Origin: Cloacibacterium normanense
GTDB taxonomy: Bacteria > Bacteroidota > Bacteroidia > Flavobacteriales > Weeksellaceae
Direction of reading: 5' to 3'
NCBI RefSeq assembly: GCF_002943105.1
Contig: NZ_PTPZ01000001.1
Location: 1-64,000, forward strand
Length of the DNA stretch: 64,000 nt
The notes below the pieces were generated by a model, which saw nothing but the letters and a program-made list of their open reading frames with translations, had not been told where the DNA came from and ran no database searches. Within the stretch, counting starts at the first letter, position 1; every line of letters starts with the position of its first letter. The translations under genes were made by a program, and so were the position numbers. Below, one piece after another: positions 32,566 to 53,168 of the stretch.

Positions 32566-32763
32566 GTGAAAATCAATAGATTAAAAGTTATTCTTGCTGA
32601 AAAAGAAAAAACTAATAAATGGTTAGCTGAGAAACTTGGCAAAAGCGAAGTAACTGTTTCCAGATGGGTAAGGAACGAAAATCAGCCTTCTATGGAGACT
32701 TTATTAGTTATTTCCAAATTATTAGATATAGATATTAAAGAACTTTTGAATTCCAGTAAATAG
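32566..32763 (+). CDS. Cro/CI-type HTH regulator (GTG start)
   Basis: The 65-residue protein is a single HTH_3 domain with the segment WLAEKLGKSEVTVSRWVRN. It starts at GTG (32566), and its stop directly touches the ATG of the PLD-helicase gene, so it leads the restriction-like operon. Small Cro/CI proteins in this position act as controllers that delay nuclease expression until methylation is established, which is the likely role here. Confidence 0.85.
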   Translation: MKINRLKVILAEKEKTNKWLAEKLGKSEVTVSRWVRNENQPSMETLLVISKLLDIDIKELLNSSK

Positions 32764-35700
32764 ATGAGTACAAAATTTTTTACAAATAAGGACGGCAATA
32801 GTCTTTTTAATAAGTTCAAAGGAGTTTTTGAATATCAAAACGTGCATTTTTTTGATGCATTAGTAGGGTATTTCAGAGCTTCAGGATATTTTAAATTAAG
32901 GCCATTTTTGGATAAAGTTCCAGAAATAAGAATATTGGTAGGTATTAATGCAGATGAGCTTATTGCAGATGCAAAAAGAAAAGGACAACTTTATTTAGAA
33001 AATTCTGAAAAGACGAAGGAAGAATATTTAAATTTTGTTGCACAAGACATCAATAAAGCTACTTATGATGCAGAAACTGAAAAGAGTATATTACAGTTTA
33101 TTGATGACATAATCACTGAAAAAGTTAAAATAAGAGCATACGGACAAAAAAATCTACATGCTAAAATTTACATTTTCAGACCAAATCCTTTTAATCAGCA
33201 TACTTTAGGAAGTGTAATTACAGGTTCGTCTAATTTAACAGATTCAGGATTAGGAACTTACGACCAAGCTAATTATGAATTTAATGTTCAATTGAATGAT
33301 TATGATGATGTAAAATTTGCAACCGAAGAGTTCGAAGAATTGTGGAAAGATGCCAATGAATTAATTCCTGCTGACTTACAAAAACTAAAAGCTAAAACAT
33401 ACCTAAGTGAAGAAAAAATAACGCCTTATGATTTATTCATTAAAATGCTCGTAGAGTATTTTGGAGATTCTGTAATAAGAGATAAGGTAGGTAATTTAAC
33501 TTTACCAGAAGGATATACCAATTTACAATATCAAGCAGATGCCGTGACAGAAGGTTTTCACAAACTTATGAAACATAATGGTTTTATATTGGCTGATGTG
33601 GTTGGTTTGGGAAAAACAGTTATTGCAACCAGAATAATTAAAAAGTATATTGAGAAAAATGGTTATAATACTAAGGTTTTAATTGTTTACCCTAATGCTT
33701 TGGAGGTAAACTGGAAATCAACTGTAAAAGATTTTGGAATTGCTAATTATGTACATTTCATATCAAATGGAAGCCTTCATAAAATTATTGAAGGTAATAA
33801 TATTGATTATCAAAAGCCTGAAGATTATGATTTAGTTATTGTAGATGAAGCTCATAAATTCAGGACTTCTAGTACCAATATGTATGGATTATTAGAGCTT
33901 ATTTGTAAAACTCCAAGAGCAACGGTAGGTAATGATGTAGATAGAAAGAAGAAAATAATGTTAATAACTGCAACTCCTCTTAATAATAAGCCAGAAGACA
34001 TTGCCAATCAAGTTTATTTATTTCAAGATTCTAGAAAATCTACATTAGAAGGCGTTCCTAATTTGCAGAGTTTTTTTGCGGATAAAATTGAAAAATATAA
34101 AAAACTTTATCTTATAAAAGACCATCAACAATTAGTGGCGAAGGTAAAAGAAATCTATGAACCCATAAGAGAAAAAATATTCTCTGAATTGGTTATTAGG
34201 AGAACTAGAGCAGATATCAAAAAAATAAATCGTTATTATGACGATGTTGTTGCTCAAGGAATGACTTTCCCTGATGTAATAGGACCTAATAAAATAGAAT
34301 ATGAGTTTTCTGATTTGCAAGAAAAAATTTTTTATGAAACGGTAGATGCCATAATTGATAGCCTTGGATATTATAGATATAGAGCTATTGAGCATTTGAA
34401 TCCAAAATATGAAGATTTGTATGATAATGCCAAATTAATTTCTGAAAGACTTTCTATCATTATGAAAACCCAATTGGTAAAACGTTTAGAAAGCAGTTTT
34501 GAAGCTTTTAGAAAATCATTATACCGATTTTACATTTCTAATCAAAGAATGATTGAAATGTTTGAGAATAATAAAGTCTATATTGCTCCTGATATAGATG
34601 TCAATAAGTTTTTAGATGAGGGTAGAGAAGAAGAGTTAGAGGCAAAAATTGAAGCTATTAATGCAGAATCTCCAAACAATCAAATTTTCAAAGCTGAAGA
34701 CTTTTCTGAAGATTTTATTGAAGGATTAAAAAGAGACCAAGAAGTTTTGAACTCATTATTTGAGAAATGGCAGAATATTGGGGATGACCCTAAAACAAAA
34801 AAATTCTTAGAGGCTGTAAATTCAGTATTTTTAGATGATAGAAATCCTGAGAAAAAATTAGTCATCTTTTCGGAAAGTAAGGAAACGGTAGAATATCTTG
34901 CTGAAGAATTATCAAAGGTAGGTAGAAGTGATGTTTTGGCAATCAGCGCATCTAATAACAAGCAGAGATTTTCCACTATTAGAAAAAATTTCGATGCAAA
35001 TTATCCTGATAAACAAGAAAATAATTTTAATATCATTATTACTACAGAGGTTTTAGCAGAAGGAATTAACCTTCACAGAAGTAATGTAATTCTGAATTAT
35101 GACATCCCTTGGAATGCTACTAAATTGATGCAAAGAATAGGGCGTGTGAATCGTATTGGAACAAAAGCAGATAAAATATATGTGTATAATTTCTTTCCAA
35201 CTGCACAATCTAATAGTTTAATAAAACTAAATGAAAAAGCATTAAAAAAACTACAAGGTTTTCACTCTGCATTTAGTGAAGATAGCAAAGTATATTCTGA
35301 AGAAGAGCAATTGATAGAAAATACTCTTGGTGATTTACAACCTCAAGAAGAAGTTGATGAGAGATTGCAATATCTGGAAATGGTAAGAGAGCTTTATGAA
35401 AATAATTTCAAAGAGTATAAAAGAATAAAATCTATGCCATTAAAAAGCAGAGTAGGAAGAGCAGTAAAGATAAAAGAAAAAGAAGCACAAGATATTGTAG
35501 GACAAAAGTTAGATAATGCAATTTTATGTTATCTGAGAAACAAAATGAAAGAAGGTTTTTATGTTGCCAATGAAAAAAACTCTGTAGAAATAACCTTTTA
35601 TCAGGCAGTTAAATTATTTGAAGCCAGTAAAAAGGAAAAACCGACTAAGATTTTTGAAAATCATTTTGAGGCGGTAAATTTGGCCGTTGAGCAATTTAAA

Positions 35701-36096
35701 AAAGTCTATAATACTGTTTATTCTGTAGAGGAATATGACACTTCTAATCTTTCTGTTCAGGAAAGAAATTCTGTTAACTTTTTGAAAGGATTAAAAGACT
35801 TGCAGCGCAATTTTCCTCAGGAATTATCAGAAGAGTTTATAGAAATGGTAGATGCTTCTTTGCGAATCATATATATGGGAGTTTTCAGAAAATTTAGAAA
35901 TGAAATTGCTACCCTAGCTGCGAAACAAAAAAAGAAAAAAATGCCTTTGGCAAAAGTTATTGTAGAACTTAATCTAATAATGAATAAGTATCCTATTGCA
36001 AATATTGCCAGATTAGATGCTCTGCGTACAGAAGAAGAACAGCAACCAAAGATATTTGAAGAACCAAAAATTGTAATAACCGAGACCTTTTCATAA
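32764..36096 (+). CDS. PLD-nuclease / SNF2-type helicase fusion of a restriction-like system
   Basis: The 1110-residue protein has an N-terminal phospholipase-D nuclease-like domain (about 25-210) with H132-x-K134 and the S155-N157 pair in TGSSNLTDSG. An SF2/SNF2-like helicase follows, with the Walker A GLGKT (281-285), DEAH (361-364), TATP (402-405) and QRIGRVNRIG (from 790). It should move on DNA and cleave. Its stop and the methyltransferase start share one base (TAATG), so they are a translationally coupled restriction and modification pair. It is unlike HsdR or the BREX and DISARM helicases I know. Restriction activity is inferred. Confidence 0.8.
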   Translation: MSTKFFTNKDGNSLFNKFKGVFEYQNVHFFDALVGYFRASGYFKLRPFLDKVPEIRILVGINADELIADAKRKGQLYLENSEKTKEEYLNFVAQDINKATYDAETEKSILQFIDDIITEKVKIRAYGQKNLHAKIYIFRPNPFNQHTLGSVITGSSNLTDSGLGTYDQANYEFNVQLNDYDDVKFATEEFEELWKDANELIPADLQKLKAKTYLSEEKITPYDLFIKMLVEYFGDSVIRDKVGNLTLPEGYTNLQYQADAVTEGFHKLMKHNGFILADVVGLGKTVIATRIIKKYIEKNGYNTKVLIVYPNALEVNWKSTVKDFGIANYVHFISNGSLHKIIEGNNIDYQKPEDYDLVIVDEAHKFRTSSTNMYGLLELICKTPRATVGNDVDRKKKIMLITATPLNNKPEDIANQVYLFQDSRKSTLEGVPNLQSFFADKIEKYKKLYLIKDHQQLVAKVKEIYEPIREKIFSELVIRRTRADIKKINRYYDDVVAQGMTFPDVIGPNKIEYEFSDLQEKIFYETVDAIIDSLGYYRYRAIEHLNPKYEDLYDNAKLISERLSIIMKTQLVKRLESSFEAFRKSLYRFYISNQRMIEMFENNKVYIAPDIDVNKFLDEGREEELEAKIEAINAESPNNQIFKAEDFSEDFIEGLKRDQEVLNSLFEKWQNIGDDPKTKKFLEAVNSVFLDDRNPEKKLVIFSESKETVEYLAEELSKVGRSDVLAISASNNKQRFSTIRKNFDANYPDKQENNFNIIITTEVLAEGINLHRSNVILNYDIPWNATKLMQRIGRVNRIGTKADKIYVYNFFPTAQSNSLIKLNEKALKKLQGFHSAFSEDSKVYSEEEQLIENTLGDLQPQEEVDERLQYLEMVRELYENNFKEYKRIKSMPLKSRVGRAVKIKEKEAQDIVGQKLDNAILCYLRNKMKEGFYVANEKNSVEITFYQAVKLFEASKKEKPTKIFENHFEAVNLAVEQFKKVYNTVYSVEEYDTSNLSVQERNSVNFLKGLKDLQRNFPQELSEEFIEMVDASLRIIYMGVFRKFRNEIATLAAKQKKKKMPLAKVIVELNLIMNKYPIANIARLDALRTEEEQQPKIFEEPKIVITETFS

Positions 36097-39000
36097 TGAA
36101 TAGACAGGCTTTAAAACATATATTGCAAAGTAACTATGATAGAGATCAATGGATTTCTACTTTGCAATTTCTCACAGGAAAAAGAGAATACCTTACCGTA
36201 CATCTTACTCCTAAAACCATTGAAATTAATACTCAAGAGGCAGACCGCATTGTAAAAACTTTTTATCAAATCGGAAGCCTCAAAACTTCTGATGGCATTA
36301 GCTTACCCATTTTTGAGATAATTCTAGAAGATAATATCCGTATAGAATACAACAAAGTTAGTGTAAATGATTTCATTAAGAAATACATTATCAAAGATGC
36401 AATAAAAGGCGCATTAACTACTTTTTCTTATGATAAAGGCCATGAGAAAAAAGAATGGCGTTTTTCTTTTATTTCTAAAAATTCGGCCAATGACTTCTTT
36501 GCAGAAGCAGAAGCAGAAGAAACGAATCCTAAAAAATACACTTACATATTTGGTACAGAAGAAGAGCACAGAACAGCCATTGAAAGACTATATAATCTGG
36601 AACAATCTCGTTTTAGATTAGAAGACTTCTTTGAAGCCTTCAATGTAGAGCCCGTTTCTAAAAAATTCTTTGAAGAATACAAAAGTTTGTATAAGCAGTT
36701 CTCTGGTTTTCTTGCAGATGAAAAAAATGAGTATAGAAGCATTTTTGAAGCAGAAATTAATGATTTTAATAGCAAAACTAAAGAGGATATAGCGAAGGAG
36801 ATAGACAAAGACATCCGCAATTTTGCAAGCCGATTAATGGGGAGAATGGTTTTCCTATATTTTTTACAAAAAAAACATTGGTTGGGAGCGTCTAATCAGC
36901 AGTATAAAGATGGAAGCTCTACTTTTTTAAGTGATTTGTTTTATAATGATAAGGAGAGCCAAACAAATTTTTATCAAAAATATTTAAGCAGAATATTTTT
37001 TGAAGCACTTAACACTCCTGATAGAAAAAATGAAGAGTTTACATTGCATAACGGAAAAACTGTTTGTATCCCTTTCTTAAATGGTGGTTTATTTGAAGAA
37101 GAACAAGAACCCAAAAGACATAGAGAAATACAATTTCCCGCATTTTATTTTGAAGATTTGTTCACATTCTTTAACGGATACAATTTTACGATTTATGAAA
37201 ACAGTCCAGAAGAACATACCGTTGCGGTAGACCCAGAAATGTTAGGACATATTTTTGAAAACCTTATTGATTATAACAAAGATACAGGCACATTCTACAC
37301 TCCAAAAGAAATAGTGCAGTATATGACGCAGGAAAGTCTTATTGAATACCTGAACACCCATCTGCAAAAAGAGAGAAAAGAGATAGAGAATCTACTAAAA
37401 AATCATTATACAAAACCTTTTAATGATGCTGAATTAGAAAAAATAGACCAACTTTTAAATGACGTAAAAATCTGCGACCCAGCTATTGGTTCTGGTGCAT
37501 TTCCTATGGGAATGTTACAAGAAATATTTAATCTAAAAGCAGTGATTGCATATGAACTGAAAAAAGAATGGAATCCTGCACAAGTAAAGCAAGATATTAT
37601 ACAAAATTCTATCTATGGAGTAGATTTAGACGAAGGAGCGGTAGAAATTGCAAGGCTGCGTTTTTGGCTCTCTTTGGTAGTAGATGAAGGCATACCAAAA
37701 GCTTTGCCGAATTTGGATTACAAGATTATGCAGGGGAATAGTTTGTTAGAAAGTTATAATGATATAGATTTATCTAATCTCGCAACTGCTGATGAACAAA
37801 TTATTTCTAATCAACAAACAGTATTAGAATTTGGCGATGAATATGCGAAAGAAATCACCGTCTTTGATGCTGTGAGTATAGAGGAAATTCAATCTTTAAT
37901 AAAAAGTTATTTTACAAAAAGTGGGAATGAAAAAGCAGAAATAAAGCAAAGACTTAATAATATTATAGAAGGTAAAATTCATTCTAAAATATACAAAGAA
38001 AAGAAAAGACTAGAAACATTAATTAATGATTTTTACAAAAAATATAATCTTTCTAAAGACAATGATTTAAGTGGTTTTAATTTAAAATCAAAAGAAATAA
38101 AAGAATTATTTTCTAATAAAGAACAATTTCACAATTTAGAAAAAATAGAAAATGAACTTATTTCTTTTCAGCATAAAAGTGAAAGGCCATATTTTCTTTG
38201 GCATCTCTACTTTAAAGAAATTTTTGATAATGGCGGTTTTGATATTGTCATCGGAAATCCACCGTATATAAAAGAATACACAAACAAATCTGCTTTTGAT
38301 GGATTTAGAAGTTCGCCGTACTACATTGGTAAAATGGATATTTGGTATGGTTTTGCCTCTAAAGGATTTGATATTTTAAAAGAAAAAGGAGTAGAATGCT
38401 TTATTGCACAGAATAATTGGGTGACTAGCTCTGGTGCAAGTATTTTAAGAAAAGATGTTCTTACAAGAACAGAAATTAAACAATTTATAGATTTTGGAGA
38501 TTACAAAGTATTTCAATCTGCAGGAATACAAACCATGATTTATCTTTTACAGAAAAATGCAAAACCTTCTGATGAATACCAAGTGTATTACGCAGGATTA
38601 ACTGATAGCAATATCAATAAAAACCAACTAGAAGATTTTTTGAATATCGATAAATTAATATCAAAACAAAGATTTTTTATAAAATTTGAAATAGCATTTA
38701 ATAATAAGAATTATTTTGATACCACAATTAATTTTGATAACCCACAATTAGTTTCTCTTTTAGATAGAGTATCTTTAAAAAAGAACTTTGAATTAAATGA
38801 AAAAGAAGTTATTCAAGGAATTGTTGGTGCTCCTGATAAAGCTTTTATAGTGAGAGATGAAGAATTACATAATTTTAATAGTGAAGAATTACAATTTATA
38901 AAACCATTCTATACCAATTCTACAGGTATTGCATCTGAAAATATTATTTATTTATGTGAAAAAAATTTTAATAATAAAAACATTAAAGATTTTATTAATT

Positions 39001-39725
39001 TATTTAAACATTTTGAGCCATATAAAGAAGAATTAATAGAAGCTAAAAATAGATATAAAACTCCAAATAAAAAATATTTTTATTTACACAGAGAAAGAGA
39101 TGAAAATTTTTTTAAAAAGGGTTCTAAAATTATTTGTCAAGCTAGGTGTTTATCAAACTGTTTTTTCTATACAGAAAATGAATATTATGCATCAAGAGCA
39201 CTTAATATAATTAAAACTGATAGAATCAATTTAAAATATTTAGTGACTTTTCTAAATTCAAAATTAATTTACTTTTATTACAAAAATAGAGGTTCAATAC
39301 AAGGAATTATGTTAAAATTTGATAAAGGTCCTTTACTGAAAATCCCAATTTACAAACCAGAAAATTATTCGCCATTTTTAGAATTTTTTGAATTAATTAC
39401 TACTACATTACAATCTAAAGAAAATATTATTGAAGGAATTGATAATAAACATATTGCAAACTTTTTTCAGGAGATCGTGGACGCTTGCTTTTTTGAGATT
39501 TATTTTCCAGAAGAGATGCAGGAAAAAAATATTACCGTAATTACACAGATAGAAGAGATTTTAAAGAAACACCAAGCAGAGAATTTTGAACATCTAAACG
39601 ATGAGGATAAAAGAAAAATGATTGCCACTTTGTATTATGCTCTAAAAGAAAGTGAGGTGCAACAAAAAATGAGGCAGTTTGTTACGGCAAGTCCAGATGT
39701 TCTTAAAGTAATTCTTCAAAGTTAA
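36096..39725 (+). CDS. Large DNA N6-adenine methyltransferase (Eco57I/PglX-like)
   Basis: The 1209-residue protein has an alpha-helical N-terminus (1-390), the segment YTPKEIVQYM, the SAM-binding motif DPAIGSGAF (461-469) and the catalytic NPPY (721-724). It ends in a C-terminal region (about 900-1200) that resembles a target-recognition domain. This layout fits single-chain adenine methyltransferases that carry their own specificity, so no HsdS is needed. The N-terminus could hold another activity, but I see no PD-(D/E)xK motif there. It lies between the helicase and the ATPase in one operon. Confidence 0.85.
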   Translation: MNRQALKHILQSNYDRDQWISTLQFLTGKREYLTVHLTPKTIEINTQEADRIVKTFYQIGSLKTSDGISLPIFEIILEDNIRIEYNKVSVNDFIKKYIIKDAIKGALTTFSYDKGHEKKEWRFSFISKNSANDFFAEAEAEETNPKKYTYIFGTEEEHRTAIERLYNLEQSRFRLEDFFEAFNVEPVSKKFFEEYKSLYKQFSGFLADEKNEYRSIFEAEINDFNSKTKEDIAKEIDKDIRNFASRLMGRMVFLYFLQKKHWLGASNQQYKDGSSTFLSDLFYNDKESQTNFYQKYLSRIFFEALNTPDRKNEEFTLHNGKTVCIPFLNGGLFEEEQEPKRHREIQFPAFYFEDLFTFFNGYNFTIYENSPEEHTVAVDPEMLGHIFENLIDYNKDTGTFYTPKEIVQYMTQESLIEYLNTHLQKERKEIENLLKNHYTKPFNDAELEKIDQLLNDVKICDPAIGSGAFPMGMLQEIFNLKAVIAYELKKEWNPAQVKQDIIQNSIYGVDLDEGAVEIARLRFWLSLVVDEGIPKALPNLDYKIMQGNSLLESYNDIDLSNLATADEQIISNQQTVLEFGDEYAKEITVFDAVSIEEIQSLIKSYFTKSGNEKAEIKQRLNNIIEGKIHSKIYKEKKRLETLINDFYKKYNLSKDNDLSGFNLKSKEIKELFSNKEQFHNLEKIENELISFQHKSERPYFLWHLYFKEIFDNGGFDIVIGNPPYIKEYTNKSAFDGFRSSPYYIGKMDIWYGFASKGFDILKEKGVECFIAQNNWVTSSGASILRKDVLTRTEIKQFIDFGDYKVFQSAGIQTMIYLLQKNAKPSDEYQVYYAGLTDSNINKNQLEDFLNIDKLISKQRFFIKFEIAFNNKNYFDTTINFDNPQLVSLLDRVSLKKNFELNEKEVIQGIVGAPDKAFIVRDEELHNFNSEELQFIKPFYTNSTGIASENIIYLCEKNFNNKNIKDFINLFKHFEPYKEELIEAKNRYKTPNKKYFYLHRERDENFFKKGSKIICQARCLSNCFFYTENEYYASRALNIIKTDRINLKYLVTFLNSKLIYFYYKNRGSIQGIMLKFDKGPLLKIPIYKPENYSPFLEFFELITTTLQSKENIIEGIDNKHIANFFQEIVDACFFEIYFPEEMQEKNITVITQIEEILKKHQAENFEHLNDEDKRKMIATLYYALKESEVQQKMRQFVTASPDVLKVILQS

Positions 39726-39756
39726 ACCATAATCCAAATTCTAAAAACTAATAAGA

Positions 39757-41700
39757 ATGTCAAACATAAAAGAAATTACACTTTATAATTTCAAAGCATC
39801 TTACGGTGAAACAAAAATAGAGTTAGACGGTAAAAACCTTTTGATGTATGGTGAAAACGGAAGTGGTAAAAGTTCTGTGTATTGGGCATTATATACTTTG
39901 TTGCAGTCTTCTACAAAAGAAATAGAGGAAACGGATAAATATTTTGACTTTAATCACGAAGAAAATCTTATAAATAGAGATTTTTTGATAGAACTAGACA
40001 AGAGTAGAGGATTTGGAAATTACTCAATTGATGTGGGTAAGAATGTTCAAATTGAAATTAAAGATGAAGATGACAATATTTATAACCTTAGTCTTGGAGG
40101 ATTAAGTTCTACAACAAATAAAACAGCTTTAGCAAACTTAAACAGATATTGCGACTTTATTACGCATAGGCTTTTAATCAATTTTTATAATTTTAGAAAT
40201 TCTCAAGAAATTGACTTATGGAAAATATTTAACAGAGAAATATTTCCATTTGTTTATGATAAAAAAGATAAAGGAAATAAAACAATAGAATCTCTAATAA
40301 AACAATTATACGAGAATCAACCATTTGAAATTAATTCAGAAAATGAATATAGTTTATTAGATCAGGACGAATCAATTTATGAATATTATGAAAAGATTAA
40401 AACTGTTAACACTGAAATATCTGAATTAGTCTTTAAAATAGAAAATGAAGCTAACGAGTTTTTTTCTAAATATTTTGATAATTCAGATAATGAATACAAA
40501 CTTTCACTTATTTATACTAATAAATTCTTTTTTGGAAATAATATAATTGATGATAGAGAGAATGATAAAATAAATGGTGTTATAAATCCACTCAAATTAT
40601 TAAGAACTCCTAAAATTATTCTGAAAATATATAAAAAAGCGCATAATTCTTTTGAGTTAATTACAAGGCCTCAAACCTACTTAAACGAAGCATTAATAAC
40701 ACAGTTGTCTTTGTCTATACGATTAGCTTTAACAAAATCTAGAGCTGTAAACTATCCAGGGCAATTTCTGGTATTAGATGATATGCTAATTAGCCTTGAC
40801 ATGAGCAATCGAGATAAAGTTTTGGATATTATTCTTAATGAATTTGCACCTAAGTACAAAATCTATCTTTTTACGCACGAAAGAAGTTTTTTCAATATTG
40901 TGAAGAGGAGGCTTGTAAATAGAAACCTTTTGGAAGATTGGAATATTAAAGAAGTTTTTATGAATAATTTTGTAACTCCTTCAAAACCAATCATTGTTGA
41001 TAATAAAGATTATCTGTCATTAGCTTTATATCATTTGAAAAATTTTGATTTACCTGCTGCTGCAAATTATTTGCGCAAAGAGTGTGAATTCCGAATGAAA
41101 TATCTGTTGCCAGAAAATTTAGCTAAAAAAGAAACAGATGAGAATACAAAATACAATCAACTAGAAAATCTAATAACTAATTTTTTAAAATATTATTCAG
41201 AAACTTTAAATCAGAATATAACGAATTTATTAATATTAAAAGAAAAAAAAGATTTAATACTTAATCCTCTTTCTCATGATAATTTAGATTCAGAAATTTA
41301 TAAAGACGAATTATTGTCATTCCATAATTTGCTTTTAGAGATGAGAAAAATTAAAAAATACATTATACTAAAGTCCGATGAGAAATTTTATTTTAATCAA
41401 ATTGATCATGATGGTGATTTATGCAGATATAATGTTAAGACGATTGAAAATATTATATTCTATAAGGTTTTAGATGGTTCTTTAGTTTGTAAAAATAGCT
41501 TATGCGAGTTTACCATTCAAGAAAAACAGGGACAAAAAATTCAGTTAAATCACCCTACAAAATTTATGGATTTACAAAAAGTAGCCTATAATCATGCATT
41601 GAAAACAACAGGATTACATACATATCCAGATAAATTACTAGAATTTACAAATATTGAATCAAAAACATTTCAAGAACTAATAAATGAGTTTGATGTATAA
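39757..41700 (+). CDS. RecF/SMC-like ATPase
   Basis: The 647-residue protein has an ABC-type ATP site: Walker A GENGSGKSS (32-40), and Walker B FLVLDDMLISLD followed by the LFTHERSF switch (about 336-375). The middle lacks the long coiled coil of Rad50, so it is a short RecF-like ATPase. The C-terminal 250 residues are helical (for example LALYHLKNFDLPAAANYLRKE) and unknown to me. It starts 31 bp after the methyltransferase stop and overlaps the next gene by 17 bp. This pairing is like ATPase-effector defence pairs. Confidence 0.8.
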   Translation: MSNIKEITLYNFKASYGETKIELDGKNLLMYGENGSGKSSVYWALYTLLQSSTKEIEETDKYFDFNHEENLINRDFLIELDKSRGFGNYSIDVGKNVQIEIKDEDDNIYNLSLGGLSSTTNKTALANLNRYCDFITHRLLINFYNFRNSQEIDLWKIFNREIFPFVYDKKDKGNKTIESLIKQLYENQPFEINSENEYSLLDQDESIYEYYEKIKTVNTEISELVFKIENEANEFFSKYFDNSDNEYKLSLIYTNKFFFGNNIIDDRENDKINGVINPLKLLRTPKIILKIYKKAHNSFELITRPQTYLNEALITQLSLSIRLALTKSRAVNYPGQFLVLDDMLISLDMSNRDKVLDIILNEFAPKYKIYLFTHERSFFNIVKRRLVNRNLLEDWNIKEVFMNNFVTPSKPIIVDNKDYLSLALYHLKNFDLPAAANYLRKECEFRMKYLLPENLAKKETDENTKYNQLENLITNFLKYYSETLNQNITNLLILKEKKDLILNPLSHDNLDSEIYKDELLSFHNLLLEMRKIKKYIILKSDEKFYFNQIDHDGDLCRYNVKTIENIIFYKVLDGSLVCKNSLCEFTIQEKQGQKIQLNHPTKFMDLQKVAYNHALKTTGLHTYPDKLLEFTNIESKTFQELINEFDV

Positions 41701-42343
41701 TGAATGTTTAAAAAAAGAAGCAATAGGCGCTTATGAAATTTTGAAAATTTCCCAATATGCAAAAGAAAAAGCATTTATCAGCAGATGTTTTCAGATAGAA
41801 GTAGAGAGTCAGTTTGATAATGTTAAACTTCGTTTACATTTAATAGACTCTCTATATTCCACACAGATGAGTAAACGCTATTATGGTATAGAAGAGTTGG
41901 CAGAAGCATTGTCTAAATATACGGACAAGGAACTAATAACAGAAGCAAATAAATTAGTAAATAGAGAAGATTCTGAAATTCTGCAAAAAATATTTGGAGA
42001 AAAATATGGCTATAATTCAAATGGCAAAAAAGAAAAAAAAGCAGTTTCACTCATTTCAAAATATTTGTATTTTCTTACAGGTTATCAATTTCCTATTTAT
42101 GATAGTTTAGTAAAAATAGCCTATCCAAAGGTTATTAAAGAATATAATGTTAAGACTGGCTACACCAAAATTACAGATATTAATTTTGTACAAGCATTAT
42201 CTGCACTAAATCAAGTTTCAAGCATTAATGATTTTGAAAAACTAGATAACTTTCTATGGTATTCACAAAAAGTAGAAAACAATAGTTTTTCTTTGATTTG
42301 CAGTAAAGAAGAGCATTTAAAAAGGATCAAAATAAAAGTTTAA
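41684..42343 (+). CDS. Unknown partner protein of the RecF/SMC-like ATPase
   Basis: The 219-residue protein overlaps the ATPase gene by 17 bp, so the two are coupled. The centre has a helical segment KAVSLISKYLYFLTGYQFPIYDSL (split here as AVSLISKYL and FPIYDSLV), which recalls helix-hairpin-helix DNA-binding proteins, but no family can be named. It has no HNH, GIY-YIG or PD-(D/E)xK motif that I can see. It may be a DNA-binding or toxin subunit. A second ATG at 41693 is possible. Confidence 0.65.
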   Translation: MSLMYNECLKKEAIGAYEILKISQYAKEKAFISRCFQIEVESQFDNVKLRLHLIDSLYSTQMSKRYYGIEELAEALSKYTDKELITEANKLVNREDSEILQKIFGEKYGYNSNGKKEKKAVSLISKYLYFLTGYQFPIYDSLVKIAYPKVIKEYNVKTGYTKITDINFVQALSALNQVSSINDFEKLDNFLWYSQKVENNSFSLICSKEEHLKRIKIKV

Positions 42344-42415: not shown

Positions 42416-45400
42416 ATGAATACCATAACACAAATAGAAAATGCTTTAGTAGCAATTAATCAAGCAAGTTTCCAGACTCTAATAAATCATTTATTACATT
42501 TTGAAGGAAACAAATTTATAGGTTCACCAGGTGCCGTTGTTGGTAAAGAAAAAACAAGCAAAGGATCTCCTGATTCTTTTTTTGTCAATGGAGATAATTA
42601 CATTTTTGTTGAATGTACAACAAAAGAAAGAATTGGAGAGTCAAAATCATTTTTTGATAAACTTTCAAAAGACATAGACCATTGTTTTAATGAAAGCCAA
42701 ACTAAAATTATTAAAGAAAAAATTGAGAAAGTCTTTTTAGCTTGTACTGAAAAAATAAGTACAGAGGAATACAATTCGTTAAATGGGAAAGTAAAATCTT
42801 ACAATCCCGATACTGTACTTGAAGTTTTGACAATTCAGAATTTGCCAATGCGTATTTTCGATATTCCAAAATTAGCTGAAGAGTATCTCAATATTCAGAT
42901 GATAAAGGGAGATATTTATCCACTTGAACAATTTTTATTAAAAACCGAAAAGGGATTACAGCCATCACTTACTAATGAATTTGTAGGTAGAGAAGCTGAA
43001 TTAAAAGATTGCATTGCTATTTTAGAAAACTATGACATTTTATTTTTGTCAGGTGGTGCGGGGGTTGGAAAATCAAAATTAGGAGTTAAAATATTAGAAG
43101 AACTTTCAAAAGAAGATTATGTTCCAATTGTAATTCAGAGTTCTGGTGTTTCTTTATGGGATGATTATCAGCATCTTTTTTTGACAGGTAAAAAACATAT
43201 TATTTTATTTGATGATGCTAATAAATCAGTAAATAATTTAGTTTACCTATTAAGTAAGTTGGGAGAATCAAAATCATATTCTTTCAAAGTAGTAATAACT
43301 TCAAGAGACTATGTAAAAAAACAGGTTTCACTTACTCTCGAAAATTATACTTTTAGAGAATTAGGTATAAAGGAGTTTAAAGATGAAGAAATTGGAAAAA
43401 TAATAATTGCTACTCTTCCCAATTTGAAACACTATCCTGACATAAAAAGAAAAATTATTGAATTGGCAAAAGGTAATGCGAGAGTTGCATTAATGGCAAC
43501 TAATTCGGTAGTTCCAGAAGCAGAAACTAATTATTTGAGTAGTCCGGTCTTGCTTTATGAAAAATATTTTAAGAAAATATCAGAAGATATAGGAATCTTT
43601 GAAAATCCAATTATTCTCAAATCTTTGGCAATTGTGTCGTTTTTTGGTGTTTTAGACAGAAATAATGAAGAACTTAAAGAAATACTATCATCTAAATTTC
43701 ATATAGATTGGAATGAGTTATGGTCTGCAATTATGGAGCTTCATAATAATGAAATTTTGGATGTTTATTCTGAAGAAATTGTAAAAGTTTCCGACCAAGT
43801 TTTGGCAACCTATGCTTTTTATAAATGTTTCATTGATGAGAAATCCTCTGTTATTAATTATGCAGATTGGATAACAGCATTCATTGAAAAATTTCCAAGT
43901 AGAATTACAGCAACGCTTATAGATGCAAATAATACATTTACCTATTACAATGTAAAAGATTTTGTGTTGCCTCATTTACAAAAGATAATTCAAAACAATA
44001 AATCAGAAGAACAATTATATGCATTCTACAAACTATTTTGGTTTTATAAAGGGCGTGAATGTTTATTGTATTTAAAAAAATGGATTGACAATCTTTCCAA
44101 GGAAGAACGTTCTGGAAAATTAGAGTTTAGCTACGTTCACAATGACCATACTTCAGCAACAAAATATTTTGAGTTATTACGAAAGTTTTGGAATCATCCC
44201 AATGAGCTACTAAAGCCATCGCTTGAATTGACACTGAAAATGTTAATAAAAAGTCCAAATCGTTTATCCGAAGTTTTAAAATTTATTAATGACGATTTCA
44301 GTTACAAGTTAGAAGATTTGGAACACGGTTATTTGCGTCAAAATATTTTATTTGATGTATTACTAAATCAAAAATTATCTGATGAAGAAAGATATTTTGC
44401 GAATGGAATCTTTTTAAACATATCGGAAAAGTTATTGGGGTGGGATTATACAGAGTTTGGTTCAGCAAAAGGTTCTGCATTTACAATCTACAATTTTAGC
44501 TTGTTCAAATCTGACGCCTTATTGGAGTTAAGAAGTCGTATACTTAACAAAACGTTTGAACTTTATGATACTGATGACAAGAATTCTCAACAATTACTAC
44601 ATAAAATAGTATACCCTGGCGGAAATATTGACAAGAGTATCTATGTTCAAGAATTACCTATTTATGAAAAATTAATCTATGAAAAATTAGATAATAAGCA
44701 GTATGCTCACTGTAAGTTTGTTAGTGTTCTTGCCAAAAATTTGTCAGGAGAGGGAATAAATTTCCCAGAGAATTGGAATAATTTTATTGAGTCTGATATT
44801 AGAAAATTATCAAAGTTCATAAAACCTGATTGGGAATATAGAGAAGGAAAATCTATTGATGAATCTGAAAGGGAAAAAAAGCAAGAATTTGAAACTTTTG
44901 TAAACAAAAACAATTGGCAGGAGTTAGAAAAATTTCTATTAAATATAGATGAATTATACCGACAGCAAAAGGATATTAATGTTTGGCATATAGAAAATGC
45001 GGTTACAGATATTTATTCTGCAATTGCGAGAAAAAGTAAATCTGAATTTGAAGATGCTTTAAGATTGTTCTTTGGTGGTAAAGTTAGTTACCCTTTACGT
45101 GCTTATGTTTTGAATGTTGTAATGAGTGAAAACATTTTGACGGCAAATGAGCTTTTAAATATAATGAATGAATACGATTTTAAAGGGAAACCTTATTGGG
45201 AATCTGTATTAGTTACATTTATACGAGAAGAACAAATTAGTCAAGATTTTTTGAACCTTTTATTAGATGTTTTTGGAAACGAAAACGAATACCTGTATAT
45301 ACATAGAATGCTCGATTATGCGAAATATGAATCAGTATTCAATGAATTTAAACAAGGAAAACCAGAATTGGAAGAACACAATATTATAACTTATTTAACA

Positions 45401-46192
45401 AGCATAATTTTTAATAAACCACACAATACAAGACGAGATTTTGGATTTCATTTTTGTGTAGAATGTGCATCATACTTTACTAATCACTTTCAACTTTTAA
45501 AAGATGCTTTTTGGTCTCAATATGAAATAAACCCTCATTTCGACCACGATGGTAAAGAATTAAAAGCAATTTTAGATATTGACAATAAATTTCTTAATGA
45601 TAGTTTAAGAAACGGAAAGTTAGGACTGGGGTATTCTTCAAAAATAAGGTTAGAAAAAATAAACACGAATCCATTGTGGGAATATGATTGCTATGAAGAA
45701 TTGATTGAAGATTTAGTGTTATTGGCATTAGCAAGTGAACAATATAGTTTTTTAATAGAAGAAGATATATATTCCATATTTAGGTATAAAAGTACAACAG
45801 AAGATGCCACAGAAAAAATGAAAGCCTTAATTGTTAAGCTGACACAAAAATATGCAAACAATGAAAAAGTGGTTTTGATACTTATTGAAATGGTTTATCA
45901 TAATTTTAATTTTTGGTTTGTTGACTATTTTAAAGAGTTTCTTCTAGTTAATAAAAACATTGAAGTAACAAAACATATTAATTTTGGAAAATCAGAGAGT
46001 TGGTCAGGTAGTAGAGTACCATTAATTCAGAAGAAAATAGAATTTTATCAGGAAATAATTAAAATGATTAATGCCCTACCTAATATTTTAGACTATTCTG
46101 AGCATATTGACCATTTTGAACAAAAAATCATTAGGAAGAAACAGGATATTGAACGAGAGCAAAGAAGAGATTTTATGGAAGAGTTTTATTAA
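42416..46192 (+). CDS. Nuclease-STAND NTPase, Avs-like
   Basis: The 1258-residue protein has an N-terminal restriction-endonuclease-like domain (about 1-170) with GSPDSFF (D53) and FVECTTK (E66, K70). Next comes a STAND ATPase with P-loop GGAGVGKS (213-220), Walker B LFDD (about 266) and VVITSRD (near 295). The C-terminal 750 residues are helical, like repeat sensors. Such an effector-switch-sensor order is that of Avs and related anti-phage STAND proteins. It stands 72 bp after the partner gene. The trigger and nuclease activity are unproven, and the E-x3-K spacing is a variant. Confidence 0.75.
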   Translation: MNTITQIENALVAINQASFQTLINHLLHFEGNKFIGSPGAVVGKEKTSKGSPDSFFVNGDNYIFVECTTKERIGESKSFFDKLSKDIDHCFNESQTKIIKEKIEKVFLACTEKISTEEYNSLNGKVKSYNPDTVLEVLTIQNLPMRIFDIPKLAEEYLNIQMIKGDIYPLEQFLLKTEKGLQPSLTNEFVGREAELKDCIAILENYDILFLSGGAGVGKSKLGVKILEELSKEDYVPIVIQSSGVSLWDDYQHLFLTGKKHIILFDDANKSVNNLVYLLSKLGESKSYSFKVVITSRDYVKKQVSLTLENYTFRELGIKEFKDEEIGKIIIATLPNLKHYPDIKRKIIELAKGNARVALMATNSVVPEAETNYLSSPVLLYEKYFKKISEDIGIFENPIILKSLAIVSFFGVLDRNNEELKEILSSKFHIDWNELWSAIMELHNNEILDVYSEEIVKVSDQVLATYAFYKCFIDEKSSVINYADWITAFIEKFPSRITATLIDANNTFTYYNVKDFVLPHLQKIIQNNKSEEQLYAFYKLFWFYKGRECLLYLKKWIDNLSKEERSGKLEFSYVHNDHTSATKYFELLRKFWNHPNELLKPSLELTLKMLIKSPNRLSEVLKFINDDFSYKLEDLEHGYLRQNILFDVLLNQKLSDEERYFANGIFLNISEKLLGWDYTEFGSAKGSAFTIYNFSLFKSDALLELRSRILNKTFELYDTDDKNSQQLLHKIVYPGGNIDKSIYVQELPIYEKLIYEKLDNKQYAHCKFVSVLAKNLSGEGINFPENWNNFIESDIRKLSKFIKPDWEYREGKSIDESEREKKQEFETFVNKNNWQELEKFLLNIDELYRQQKDINVWHIENAVTDIYSAIARKSKSEFEDALRLFFGGKVSYPLRAYVLNVVMSENILTANELLNIMNEYDFKGKPYWESVLVTFIREEQISQDFLNLLLDVFGNENEYLYIHRMLDYAKYESVFNEFKQGKPELEEHNIITYLTSIIFNKPHNTRRDFGFHFCVECASYFTNHFQLLKDAFWSQYEINPHFDHDGKELKAILDIDNKFLNDSLRNGKLGLGYSSKIRLEKINTNPLWEYDCYEELIEDLVLLALASEQYSFLIEEDIYSIFRYKSTTEDATEKMKALIVKLTQKYANNEKVVLILIEMVYHNFNFWFVDYFKEFLLVNKNIEVTKHINFGKSESWSGSRVPLIQKKIEFYQEIIKMINALPNILDYSEHIDHFEQKIIRKKQDIEREQRRDFMEEFY

Positions 46193-46364: not shown

Positions 46365-46772
46365 CAATATTATGTATCACTAAACATTCTCAATGCGTTA
46401 GGGTTATTTTCAAAACTTCAAGAGAAAGAATTGTTAGAATCTGGCTTAAGAGCAAATAAATCTGCTTTAGAAAGGCATCATTTATTTCCAAAAGCTTGGT
46501 TAATGCGAAACGGAGTTACAGAACAAAGAGATTACAATCAGATTGCCAATTTTGCATTGGTAGAATGGAGTGACAATATTGCAATAAGTGATAAAGAGCC
46601 TAAAGTTTATTTGCCAATTTACGAACAAAGATTTTCAGAAGAGGAATTAAGAAAAATGAGGTTTTGGCATGCTTTACCTGAAAATTGGCAAGAAATGAAA
46701 TACAAAGATTTTCTATTGGAAAGAAGAAGACTAATTGCTGAAGTAGTAAAAAGTGCCTATCAAAAATTGTAA
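46356..46772 (+). pseudogene. C-terminal fragment of a DUF262/DUF1524 (GmrSD-like) protein
   Basis: The open frame starts right after a stop codon inside the inverted repeat. Only TTG at 46431 could start it. It encodes about 138 residues matching the HNH part of DUF1524 proteins: ALERHHLFPKAWL, NQIANFALVEWSDNIAISD and a basic C-terminus. Whole DUF262-DUF1524 nucleases run to several hundred residues, so the DUF262 half is missing. The family includes GmrSD-like enzymes against modified phage DNA. The HNH histidines are kept, but a working protein is unlikely. Confidence 0.6.
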
Positions 46773-47707: not shown

Positions 47708-49078
47708 ATGATGAAAATGAATTTTAAACGACATATTTTTGATGAGTTGGTTCAGTGGAAAATGAGTTCTAATGCCAAACCGTTGATACTAAGAGGAGCT
47801 CGACAAGTAGGAAAAACGACCTTAGTTCGTAGTTTCGGGGAAAGTTATACCCATTTTATAGAACTTAATTTAGAAAAAAGCGAAGATGCTAGTCTCGTAG
47901 AACGGAGTAATAGTGTGCAGGAATTGGTCAATTTTTTGGCATTAAAAAATGAAATCTCTCCAAAAGATTTCCCCCATACACTGCTTTTTATTGATGAAAT
48001 CCAAGAATCCGAAAAAGCTATTTCTTTTTTGCGTTATTTTCATGAGGACTTGCCAGAATTGAATGTCATTGCTGCGGGTTCTTTGCTGGAGCATACTTTA
48101 AAGAAAACTAAAAATTATCCAGTAGGTCGGATTAATTATTTGTATCTGTTTCCTTTAAATTTTCAGGAATATCTTGAAGCACAAGGAAAAAAGAATTTGT
48201 TAGAAAGATTTCGGAATGTTCCCGTTGACGACATTGCCCACGAACTTTTGATGAAAGAGTTCCACACTTATTGTATTATTGGAGGAATGCCCGAAATTGT
48301 TGCCAACTATGTTGCTCATAAAGATTTATTAGCACTTCCACAGATTTATGAAAGTATTTGGAATACCTACAAAGATGATGTGATAAAATATGCAGATAGT
48401 AAATCGGAAGAAAATGTGATGAAACACATCGTAAATACCGCTGCATCATTTGTTGACCAAAGGATTAAATTTCAAAATTTCGGACACTCTAATTATAAGT
48501 CGAGGGAAGTGAGCAAGGCATTCAATAATTTAGATGCCGCAAAGGTCATACAGGTAATTTATCCTTGTACCAATGTAGAGCCGCAAATTCTTCCAGATTA
48601 TAAAAAATCGCCACGATTACAATTTTTGGATACAGGAATTTTAAATTTTGATCTGAATATTCAAGCCGATTTGTTGCTAATGAAAGACCTTAGCGAAGCA
48701 TACAAAGGAGCGATTATCCCTCATATTATTAATCAGGAAGTTTTGTCTTTGAATACTACGGATTACAAAAAGACTTACTTTTGGGTTCGGGACAAAACGC
48801 AATCATCAGCAGAGGTGGATTTGCTTATTGCTCACGGAAAATTCTTGATTCCTATTGAAATTAAATCGGGGAAAACGGGAAGTTTGAAATCTTTGCATCA
48901 ATTTGTGAATCAAGCCCCTCATCAATTCGCAGTCAGAATGTATGGGGGAAAATTCAAAATTGAAGAAACTGTTACACCAGAAGGGAAACCTTACTTGTTA
49001 ATGAATTTGCCTTACTATTTAGGGACGTATTTAAAACAATATATCAATTACTTTATCACTAAATACAATGTCGAATAA
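47708..49078 (+). CDS. AAA ATPase with DUF4143 domain
   Basis: The 456-residue protein has an AAA_14 ATPase (about 1-190) with P-loop RGARQVGKTTL, Walker B LLFIDEIQESEKA and AAGSLLEHTL. A DUF4143 domain follows (about 220-410), with a PD-(D/E)xK-like end in AEVDLLIAHGKFLIPIEIKSGK. Such proteins are very common in mobile and defence-related regions, but their job is unknown. It has its own strong promoter and overlaps the decayed helicase start by 11 bp. Two ATGs (47708, 47711) are possible. Confidence 0.85.
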   Translation: MMKMNFKRHIFDELVQWKMSSNAKPLILRGARQVGKTTLVRSFGESYTHFIELNLEKSEDASLVERSNSVQELVNFLALKNEISPKDFPHTLLFIDEIQESEKAISFLRYFHEDLPELNVIAAGSLLEHTLKKTKNYPVGRINYLYLFPLNFQEYLEAQGKKNLLERFRNVPVDDIAHELLMKEFHTYCIIGGMPEIVANYVAHKDLLALPQIYESIWNTYKDDVIKYADSKSEENVMKHIVNTAASFVDQRIKFQNFGHSNYKSREVSKAFNNLDAAKVIQVIYPCTNVEPQILPDYKKSPRLQFLDTGILNFDLNIQADLLLMKDLSEAYKGAIIPHIINQEVLSLNTTDYKKTYFWVRDKTQSSAEVDLLIAHGKFLIPIEIKSGKTGSLKSLHQFVNQAPHQFAVRMYGGKFKIEETVTPEGKPYLLMNLPYYLGTYLKQYINYFITKYNVE

Positions 49079-50065: not shown

Positions 50066-50397
50066 GACAGGGAAAAGTTTTTTATCAAAATCATTTTGCA
50101 GGAGTCGTTACGGAAACCAACGATGGAGATTACACCTTTGAATATGATAATGATTATATTCAAAAATTTCCGTATCAGTTCATTACCTTTTCAATGCCTG
50201 TTTCCGAGAAATTATATAGAGAAAATAGGTTGTTCCCTTTTTTTGAAGGATTAATTCCGGAAGGTTGGCTGTTGGAAATAGCTTCCGAAAGTTGGAAAAT
50301 CAACAAAAACGACAGGATGGGATTGCTTTTGGCGTGTTGCAAAAATTGCATTGGTGCAGTAAGTGTAGAACCTATAATTGTGAAGAGTGATGGGTAA
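50062..50397 (+). CDS. hipS: HipS-like (HipA N-terminal subdomain)
   Basis: The 111-residue protein matches only the N-terminal Couple_hipA subdomain of HipA: FAGVVTETNDGDYTFEYD, FPYQFITFSMPVSE and FFEGLIPEGWLLEIASE. It is a separate gene from the kinase, as in the HipBST type, where the small HipS, not HipB, neutralises the kinase. The split could also be an accidental break of hipA, but overlapping starts and stops and a complete kinase argue for a natural split. Confidence 0.8.
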   Translation: MRQGKVFYQNHFAGVVTETNDGDYTFEYDNDYIQKFPYQFITFSMPVSEKLYRENRLFPFFEGLIPEGWLLEIASESWKINKNDRMGLLLACCKNCIGAVSVEPIIVKSDG

Positions 50398-51331
50398 AAA
50401 ATGTCTATATTGTTATAAAGAAGTAATGGGCGAAGAAGATTTTCATCCGCATTGCAGTCAGAAATTCTTTGGAACAACTAATCCTCCAATTTTAGATTAT
50501 ACGTTGCAGGAAATGGAAATGTTGGCTAAACAAGTCATTGAAACTTCCGTTGCAGTTCCAGGAGTTCAGCCAAAATTATCGATGGGCTTCATTAAAGATG
50601 TTTTAAAGGATGCAAACAGAGGTAGATTAACGGTTGTTGGTGCTTTAGGAGGAAACTATATTTTAAAACCGCAAAATTCCACTTTTTCGGAGATGCCCGA
50701 AAATGAACATCTGACGATGAAAATGGCTGAAATATGCGGTATTACTACCGTGATGTCCTCACTCATTCGTTTAAAATCTGGCGAATTATCCTACATTACA
50801 AAACGAATTGACAGAGACGATAATGGAAACAAAATTCATATGCTGGATATGTTTCAAATCTTAGAAGCATTTGATAAATATCGTGGTTCAGTAGAGAAGG
50901 TTGGAAAAGCTATTAAAGAGCATTCTGCAAACACGTTATTAGATTTGATGAGGTTTTATGAAATAGTAATTTTCTGTTACATTACAGGAAATAATGATAT
51001 GCATCTCAAAAATTTTTCGCTCATATTAAATGGTGAAAATTGGGAAATATCTCCTGCTTACGATTTGCTCAACGTTCAACTTCATTTACCTGAAGATAAA
51101 GAAGAATCTGCATTAACTATTGGTGGAAAAAAGAAAAAACTTTCCAAAAGCGATTTTATTAATTTAGGATTAAAATTAGGATTAAACCAAAAACAAGTGG
51201 AGAATACTTTTAAACGTTTTCTAAAATCAGAGAAGAAAATGTTATCACTTATTCATCAATCCTATTTAAGTAAAGAACATCAAGAAAAATACATCAAACT
51301 GCTCCTAAATAGATTGCTAATCTTTCAATAA
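50390..51331 (+). CDS. hipT: HipT-like serine/threonine kinase toxin
   Basis: The 313-residue protein is the HipA C-terminal kinase. An extra N-terminal cysteine knuckle (CLYC...HPHC, about 5-20) comes first. Then VPGVQPKLS, the ATP-site lysine in YITKRIDR, the catalytic GNNDMHLKNFS and the metal-binding SPAYDLL. HipA-family kinases phosphorylate aminoacyl-tRNA synthetases (HipA GltX, HipT TrpS) and stop growth. The ATG at 50390 overlaps the HipS stop by 8 bp; a GTG at 50387 is also possible. It is the last gene of the element. Confidence 0.85.
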   Translation: MGKKCLYCYKEVMGEEDFHPHCSQKFFGTTNPPILDYTLQEMEMLAKQVIETSVAVPGVQPKLSMGFIKDVLKDANRGRLTVVGALGGNYILKPQNSTFSEMPENEHLTMKMAEICGITTVMSSLIRLKSGELSYITKRIDRDDNGNKIHMLDMFQILEAFDKYRGSVEKVGKAIKEHSANTLLDLMRFYEIVIFCYITGNNDMHLKNFSLILNGENWEISPAYDLLNVQLHLPEDKEESALTIGGKKKKLSKSDFINLGLKLGLNQKQVENTFKRFLKSEKKMLSLIHQSYLSKEHQEKYIKLLLNRLLIFQ

Positions 51332-52906: not shown

Positions 52907-53168
52907 AAAAAATCAAGGACAAAAATTTACTTTTTTGTCCTTTTGAACTTCTTATTTTCAATCTTTTCTTTTGTCTCTTTTGCGGTTAATTAATTTTAAA
53001 AAACATCGGCTTAATCTTCAAAATCAGCGATAGACAAAAAAAATCAAGGACAAAAATTTACTTTTTTGTCCTTTTGAATTTCTTATTTTCAATCTTTTCT
53101 TATTTCTCTTTTGCGGTTAATTAATTTTAAAAAACATCGGCTTAATCTGCAAAATCAGCGAGAGACAA
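52907..53168. repeat. Tandem duplication of a 131-bp unit
   Basis: Two copies (52907-53037, 53038-53168) differ at only a few positions. Each holds a terminator-like hairpin (AGGACAAAAA...TTTTTTGTCCT), the phrase TCTTTTGCGGTTAAT and an AAATCAGCGA word. The gap 52832-53201 has no gene. Confidence 0.75.

Follow-up and report, generated by a model that had tools for sequence, protein, structure and literature searches.

The window studied here, a stretch of 64,000 nucleotides of Cloacibacterium normanense (contig NZ_PTPZ01000001.1, positions 1 to 64,000), carries an operon in which the conserved unit is made of three genes, encoding a PLD nuclease-SNF2 helicase fusion, an Eco57I-type adenine methyltransferase (MTase) and an ABC ATPase. 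We propose, with a probability of about 0.55, that it is a mobile ATP-dependent restriction-modification (RM) operon with a built-in second line of defence, a predicted guard RNase carried by the ATPase. An earlier note on this DNA had described a cassette of five adjoining genes with overlaps or short gaps between them. The open reading frames (ORFs), their positions and their junctions are borne out, and all five lie on the same strand:

32566..32763, + strand: Cro/CI-type helix-turn-helix (HTH) regulator, 65 aa, GTG start; an optional gene, in a position like that of an RM controller
32764..36096, + strand: PLD nuclease-SNF2 helicase fusion, 1110 aa (Pfam PLDc_2, SNF2-rel_dom, Helicase_C); R subunit, core gene
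36096..39725, + strand: Eco57I-type adenine MTase, 1209 aa (Pfam Eco57I, TaqI_C); M and predicted S function, core gene
39757..41700, + strand: SMC/RecF-like (Rad50/SMC-like) ABC ATPase, 647 aa (Pfam SMC_N, AAA_23, AAA_15, AAA_29); third core gene
41684..42343, + strand: p4, 219 aa, family-less; a rare accessory gene that overlaps the ATPase gene

The end of the HTH gene abuts the ATG of the helicase gene (0 bp), the helicase and MTase genes share 1 base, the MTase and ATPase genes are separated by 31 bp, and the ATPase and p4 genes share 17 bases. The regulator has HTH matches in NCBIfam that are all below the cut-offs. Scans for promoters and terminators yielded no signal above that of shuffled sequences.

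Conservation of the gene order

Recurrence of the gene order in other genomes had been put forward in the earlier note as a check. We found that the helicase-MTase-ATPase core recurs widely and that the five-gene set does not. In a sample of 395 genomes drawn evenly from the phylum, own genome included, relatives of the helicase (E 1e-60 or better) were detected in 33 genomes, those of the ATPase (E 0.001) in 17 and those of p4 in 4. We examined the neighbours of the 32 non-self helicase loci of this sample. An MTase gene lies at most 2.5 kb after the helicase gene in 29 of them; two of the other three loci stop at a contig edge, and a histidine kinase gene comes next in the last one (L090). 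The ATPase gene follows in 8 of the 29 helicase-MTase loci, as two fragments in L078 and after 624 bp in L082, and four of the 29 end too early for its presence to be judged.

The ATPase was also taken as the starting point of a scan of a collection of 84,980 species, which gave at least 244 confirmed loci; the 80 best of these were used. Among the 78 of these with at least 300 bp of upstream DNA, 73 have an MTase gene within 300 bp upstream of the ATPase gene, which agrees with the earlier mention of an added ATPase; in L139, the MTase gene is farther off, within 1.5 kb. The gap between the two genes is only -4 to +4 bp in 57 of the 73 loci, and such near-zero values suggest translational coupling. 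Both the helicase and the MTase genes lie upstream in 50 of the 53 loci having more than 8 kb of upstream DNA. Such an arrangement of the three middle genes greatly exceeds what chance would give. Full triads are found in records labelled with seven phyla: Bacteroidota, Bacillota (L140), Pseudomonadota (L123, L137, L142, L147), Verrucomicrobiota (L168, L174), Thermodesulfobacteriota (L164), Campylobacterota (L170) and Chlorobiota (L127, L156). These labels may err since many of the records are metagenome bins; the Chlorobiota-labelled L127 and L156 have the same ATPase sequences as L074 and L093, two loci of the phylum sample.

The helicase-MTase pair as a predicted RM enzyme

The helicase and the MTase are predicted to form an ATP-dependent RM enzyme with recognition residing in the MTase, a proposal that is well supported at the sequence level. 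Two features of the helicase are of importance here:

aa 101-194: PLDc_2 domain (Pfam)
aa 278-285, 361-364 and 790-797: SF2 motifs

In an alignment of 91 helicase rows (89 different), H132, K134, N157 and E172 of the PLD domain, K284 of Walker A, as well as D361, E362, R791 and R794 are conserved at 100%, and so are the DE-x-H and Q-x-x-G-R-x-x-R motifs. The PLDc_2 match and the invariant PLD residues confirm that the helicase carries a PLD nuclease in place of a PD-(D/E)xK one, as previously proposed. In the MTase alignment of 92 rows (90 different), D461-P-A-x-G-S-G and N721-P-P-Y are kept in 97-100% of the rows, and its sequence is related to those of BrxX and other adenine MTases of the PDB. 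A restriction gene tightly linked to an MTase with catalytic motifs is a general feature of RM systems; it is found here in 29 of the 32 helicase loci. The description of the cassette as restriction-like holds. It is also fair to infer that the MTase marks self DNA.

With respect to the cutting activity, no conserved PD-(D/E)xK triad could be found in the N-terminus of the MTase over the 92 rows of the alignment. Before position 122 no residue reaches 80%, and in the first 121 positions the sole acidic column at or above 70% is D66 (76%), which has no conserved (D/E)xK partner. The PLD domain is therefore the likely cutter. Type IIG RM, the top PADLOC label of the MTase, was rejected because the N-terminal stretch has no conserved nuclease triad.

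We also compared the window proteins with those of four relatives (L061, L176, L162 and L099), of which L162 and L099 come from Kaistella jeonii and Soonwooa buanensis. The identity of the helicase to these is 72-83% and is even along its length. That of the MTase is 59-80% over aa 1-400, 71-85% over aa 401-560 and 24-39% over aa 861-1110, the predicted recognition stretch, which contains the TaqI_C-like recognition domain; over aa 561-700 it is 22-27% in three of the four relatives and 57% in L162. A constant motor-nuclease alongside a changing MTase is what is expected if specificity lies in the MTase, the varying part being wider than the recognition domain.

A conserved residue set in the C-terminal half of the ATPase

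The ATPase had been described as RecF-like. This stands for its SMC/RecF-like ABC part: the catalytic residues of the ABC domain are invariant or almost so in an alignment of 90 rows (88 different sequences), and it is through this N-terminal part that the ATPase profile matches Rad50 and SMC3 in the PDB. The description falls short for the C-terminal half, which harbours a conserved residue set resembling that of the anticodon nucleases RloC and PrrC. Past the switch histidine H374, the only sites conserved at 95% or more are W395, R440, E444, N503 and H507. The set R440-x3-E444...N503-x3-H507 is found in 88 of the 90 rows, the exceptions being one row cut by a contig end and one with D for E, and S or A precedes the motif histidine in 88 rows. 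The relatives are only 25-38% identical to the window ATPase.

Passages of PMC2610378 give the RloC motif as Arg-X3-Glu-X36-52-His, often with Ser before His, as recalling R320-E324-H356 of PrrC, and report that alanine at any one of the three motif residues abolished RloC activity. A section of PMC3710099 assigns the RNase domains of RloC and PrrC to HEPN, and notes that they are linked to ABC ATPases and frequently encoded in RM operons; PrrC itself is described, in a part of PMC3874168, as silenced by the linked type Ic RM enzyme and switched on by a phage anti-restriction peptide. We looked for this pattern in AAA_13 (PF13166) proteins, for which a usable ORF was obtained at 11 of 18 loci: 10 of the 11 fit R-x3-E...H, the fit of L213 being chance-like. 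Judging from the motif, the odds are about even that the C-terminal domain of the ATPase is an RloC/PrrC-like RNase.

Alternative explanations

Several observations weigh against an RM operon guarded by an RNase of its own. A full ATPase gene is missing from 17 of the 25 helicase-MTase loci with readable downstream DNA (one of the 17, L080, has a 112-aa ATPase fragment), which makes the RM pair the more widely occurring unit and the ATPase an addition that the pair does not need. Four of the 78 ATPases (L126, L136, L143 and L144), which form one supported clade, have no MTase, and L107 and L116 have an MTase and no recognised helicase. Within the MTase, aa 701-860, which contain NPPY, are 29-36% identical in three of the four relatives (69% in L061), and the ATPase is only 36-39% identical overall, so that fast change is not limited to the recognition stretch of the MTase.

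As for the RNase itself, the spacing from E to H is 54-131 residues in the ATPase relatives versus 36-52 in RloC, and the ATPase gave no match to the AAA_13 (PF13166) Pfam model at E 0.001, a model that was unmatched anywhere in the own genome. A whole-length hhalign comparison with AAA_13 gave a probability of 73.6% over the ABC part only, with a target that had three wrong reading frames among its seven rows (L192, L193 and L194). The first hhalign comparison of the C-terminal part, run with an AAA_13 alignment having four wrong ORFs among 11 (L196, L197, L198 and L205), gave nothing. After these four were dropped, the score was better than those of all 60 column shuffles, and it was matched by 5 of 117 real-protein windows from helicase and MTase families. 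With a second AAA_13 set, controls scored as well in 12 of 149 cases in local mode and in 133 of 149 in global mode. Homology of the C-terminal domain to RloC/PrrC is not significant against real-protein controls and is not established.

Part of this evidence would suit a plain RM pair accompanied by an ABC ATPase that acts on DNA as a loader, sensor or translocation aid, like Rad50/SMC-like proteins, and whose C-terminal residues are structural or DNA-binding and cut no RNA. The N-terminal ABC part that matches Rad50 and SMC3, the non-significant RloC homology and the tight MTase/ATPase junction are all consistent with such a protein. However, four near-invariant polar residues lying outside the ABC motifs, in proteins that share only 25-38% identity, look catalytic, and the optional presence of the ATPase suits a guard more than it does an indispensable DNA motor; we find a purely DNA-acting ATPase rather unlikely. 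It could also be that the RM pair and the ATPase are independent defence modules with a shared promoter, the ATPase then forming, with p4, an HNH protein or another partner, a Septu- or OLD-type system with a separate effector gene. While the ATPase has weak PtuA model matches (28.5 bits at best), is followed by an HNH_5 gene in L060 and in 3 of 34 scanned relatives, and stands without an MTase in four loci, its position directly behind the MTase in 73 of 78 cases weighs against independence. Moreover, the next gene varies (HNH, pAgo, GmrSD, YhcG, Schlafen and others) and p4 is there in three places only, which makes two separate modules quite improbable in our opinion.

Proposed mechanism

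For an RM operon with a guard RNase, we can propose the following sequence of events. The MTase, as its family and motifs suggest, would recognise a DNA sequence and methylate adenine on host DNA. On unmethylated foreign DNA, it would guide or recruit the PLD-SNF2 protein, which would translocate at the expense of ATP and cut through its PLD domain; the domain make-up, the invariant catalytic residues and a recognition region that varies while the helicase is constant point to this step. The predicted RNase at the C-terminus of the ATPase would be held inactive, either by the RM complex or by the ATPase part of the same protein. Inhibition of the RM enzyme or DNA breakage by a phage would release the predicted RNase, which would then cut tRNA or other RNA, and translation would stop as is the case with PrrC for EcoprrI, a step suggested by the conserved residue set and by the position in the operon. 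As a guess, the ATPase of one clade might have an optional partner or regulator in p4.

On a broader and more tentative level, the operon could belong to a phylum-spanning, unnamed class of ATP-dependent RM systems that combine a PLD-SNF2 protein with MTase-borne specificity, with a dedicated PrrC-like guard RNase as third gene, tRNA or RNA cleavage triggered by phage inhibition of restriction, and a variable downstream slot for effectors such as p4. If this is true, the guarding of restriction enzymes by a suicide RNase would extend beyond the type Ic-PrrC pairing, such an RNase being repeatedly encoded by the third gene in an ATP-dependent RM class that is widespread. It would then become testable whether these guards are triggered by phage anti-restriction proteins, the residue set R440, E444 and H507 being defined.

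Optional and variable neighbours

An HTH gene is found ahead of 13 of the 51 helicase genes with 600 bp of upstream DNA, and strong relatives of p4 are limited to G198 and L176 besides the window. Of the four genomes matched in the phylum sample, the own genome and G198 are the only two with strong matches; weak p4 matches (G118, G197, G461 and G535) were disregarded when the places holding p4 were counted, the one in G461/L180 looking by eye like a metal-pumping ATPase. The p4 loci of the window, G198 and L176 all fall in one ATPase clade of nine rows, and the other six rows are without a p4 match in the available DNA. With p4 in three places and an HTH gene ahead of 13 of 51 helicases, the five genes are not a conserved unit; p4 and the regulator are optional, the helicase-MTase pair itself often goes without the ATPase (17 of 25 loci), and the unit proposed to annotators has to be corrected from five genes to three. 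Its presence in three places only led us to reject p4 as a core gene.

The earlier statement that p4 is without a known family is upheld, since it has no match in PADLOC, Pfam or NCBIfam at 0.001. The PDB search gave nothing significant (best E 0.039 and 0.31), and no relatives were detected in plasmids, phages or viral contigs. A presumed likeness to helix-hairpin-helix DNA glycosylases was unsupported by Pfam, PDB and PHROGs searches.

Downstream of the ATPase gene, an ORF of the same strand lies within 100 bp in 45 of the 71 relatives with a downstream ORF. We scanned 34 of these 45 for known families and found HNH_5 in three, and GmrSD_N, YhcG_C, Piwi, Schlafen AlbA, TIR_2 and others in one each; some are mere neighbours, as a glycoside hydrolase and an HSP70 are among them. 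Furthermore, 13 loci have at least one extra gene besides that of the MTase between the helicase and ATPase genes (one for a Schlafen AlbA protein in the case of L148), and L062 of the phylum sample has YhcG at this place. These look like variable slots beside the triad, in which effectors come and go.

Additional arrangements were noted in single loci. Past the triad, HNH_5 genes occur in L060 and L121, and genes of about 685 aa and about 150 aa occur in L060, L121 and L150; together they look like a recurrent accessory module (L060:13883-17248 in the first of these loci). In L065 and L066, genes of KAP-family NTPases (741 and 812 aa) come after the MTase gene, replacing that of the ABC ATPase. 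In the MTase-less clade, a family-less gene (no Pfam match) of 215-269 aa is directly upstream of the ATPase gene in L126, L136 and L143, and a PDDEXK_2 transposase-family protein is encoded upstream in L144; this clade may be a separate ABC system.

Genomic setting

The window is part of a contig of 659,976 bases in a genome of 2.84 Mb. The operon sits on a mobile island, as seen from the integrase, VapE and Toprim primase genes, the low GC content and the patchy distribution in the genus. Upstream genes encode HSP70, a tyrosine integrase, a VapE-like protein and a Toprim primase. The GC content is 26-32% in the operon region (32-46 kb), 33-35% in the nearest flanks (18-26 and 50-58 kb) and 30-35% in the remaining window. 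A helicase relative (E 1e-60 or better, 67% identity) is present in one of the six other genomes of the genus.

Several features were recorded downstream of the operon:

42416-46192: 1258-aa protein with an nSTAND3 NTPase; visual inspection suggests a PD-(D/E)xK-like stretch near the N-terminus; no PADLOC match
46431-46772: 113-aa ORF, remnant-like, whose HEC-05 match is confined to positions 516-593 of 600, at the end of the model
47708-49078: AAA_14/DUF4143 gene
50387-51331: HipA_C kinase-like gene
52907-53168: tandem pair of 131-bp copies, 96% identical, downstream of the low-GC region

The 1258-aa protein may be another defence protein of the island, of STAND type.

Comparison with known systems

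The earlier note had found no known system to match the exact set of genes. This holds for DISARM, BREX, Hma/BR and type I, whose tested features are missing here. No model fits the helicase closely, its best scores being 135 bits in PADLOC 2023 and 148.7 bits, below the cut-off, in NCBIfam 2026. The helicase and the MTase do score against the DrmD and DrmMI models of class 1 DISARM. However, the DrmD score is 148.7 bits for a cut-off of 610, the PLD domain is here fused to the helicase, and MZB (PF09369) is unmatched in the whole genome, which sets the operon apart from DISARM, DrmB being presumably of the MZB/DUF1998 family. With regard to BREX, there is no PglZ in the locus; the only PglZ match of the genome (a 514-aa frame) is on contig C13, the window being on C11. 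In the case of type I RM, no HsdS match was obtained among the operon proteins, to which this search was directed, and the nuclease domain is PLDc_2 and not PD-(D/E)xK. In type ISP enzymes, specificity is likewise borne by the MTase, and the helicase, the adenine MTase and recognition work jointly within one polypeptide that has an Mrr-type nuclease, whereas here there are two genes and a PLD domain. The ATPase also has a weak match of 38 bits to mad3 of MADS; the match lists of the helicase and the MTase covered 25 families each, so that these two proteins may have other mad matches.

Closer likenesses are found among PLD-based systems. CglI and NgoAVII use a helicase and an MTase for PLD restriction that depends on ATP, and differ by their gene split and MTase type, as described in a part of PMC4267653. 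The CxC-ABC and PbeABCD systems join an HKD-SF2 helicase to an ABC ATPase, with methylases in some of them; according to sections of PMC10853773, their ABC protein has a zinc hook and is accompanied by DndE, a small protein and cytosine methylases, whereas the MTase here is of Eco57I type. No DndE match came from the Pfam scan of the operon. The literature searched held no description of the triad, supplements and the ABC ATPase classification of Krishnan et al. 2020 (NAR), the likeliest place, being outside its scope, so that novelty in print is unproven.

Nearest in logic are the type-2 BR systems and EcoprrI-PrrC. Type-2 BR systems, which are DUF499-centred and related to BREX, comprise an HKD(PLD)-Swi2/Snf2 helicase, an N6-MTase and an ATPase (parts of PMC12839542 and PMC7641849), and Hma is named after its helicase, methylase and ATPase (part of PMC8565338). 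The ATPase of BR and Hma is DUF499, whereas the one described here is a Rad50-like ABC protein, and DUF499 (PF04465) is unmatched in the whole genome, which places the operon outside both. EcoprrI-PrrC and RloC share with the operon an ABC ATPase with C-terminal R-x3-E...H, PrrC being likewise linked to RM (parts of PMC2610378, PMC3874168 and PMC3710099). In contrast to these, the present operon has a PLD-SNF2 protein and a one-piece MTase, with no HsdS in the operon, a longer spacing within the residue triad and no AAA_13 match.

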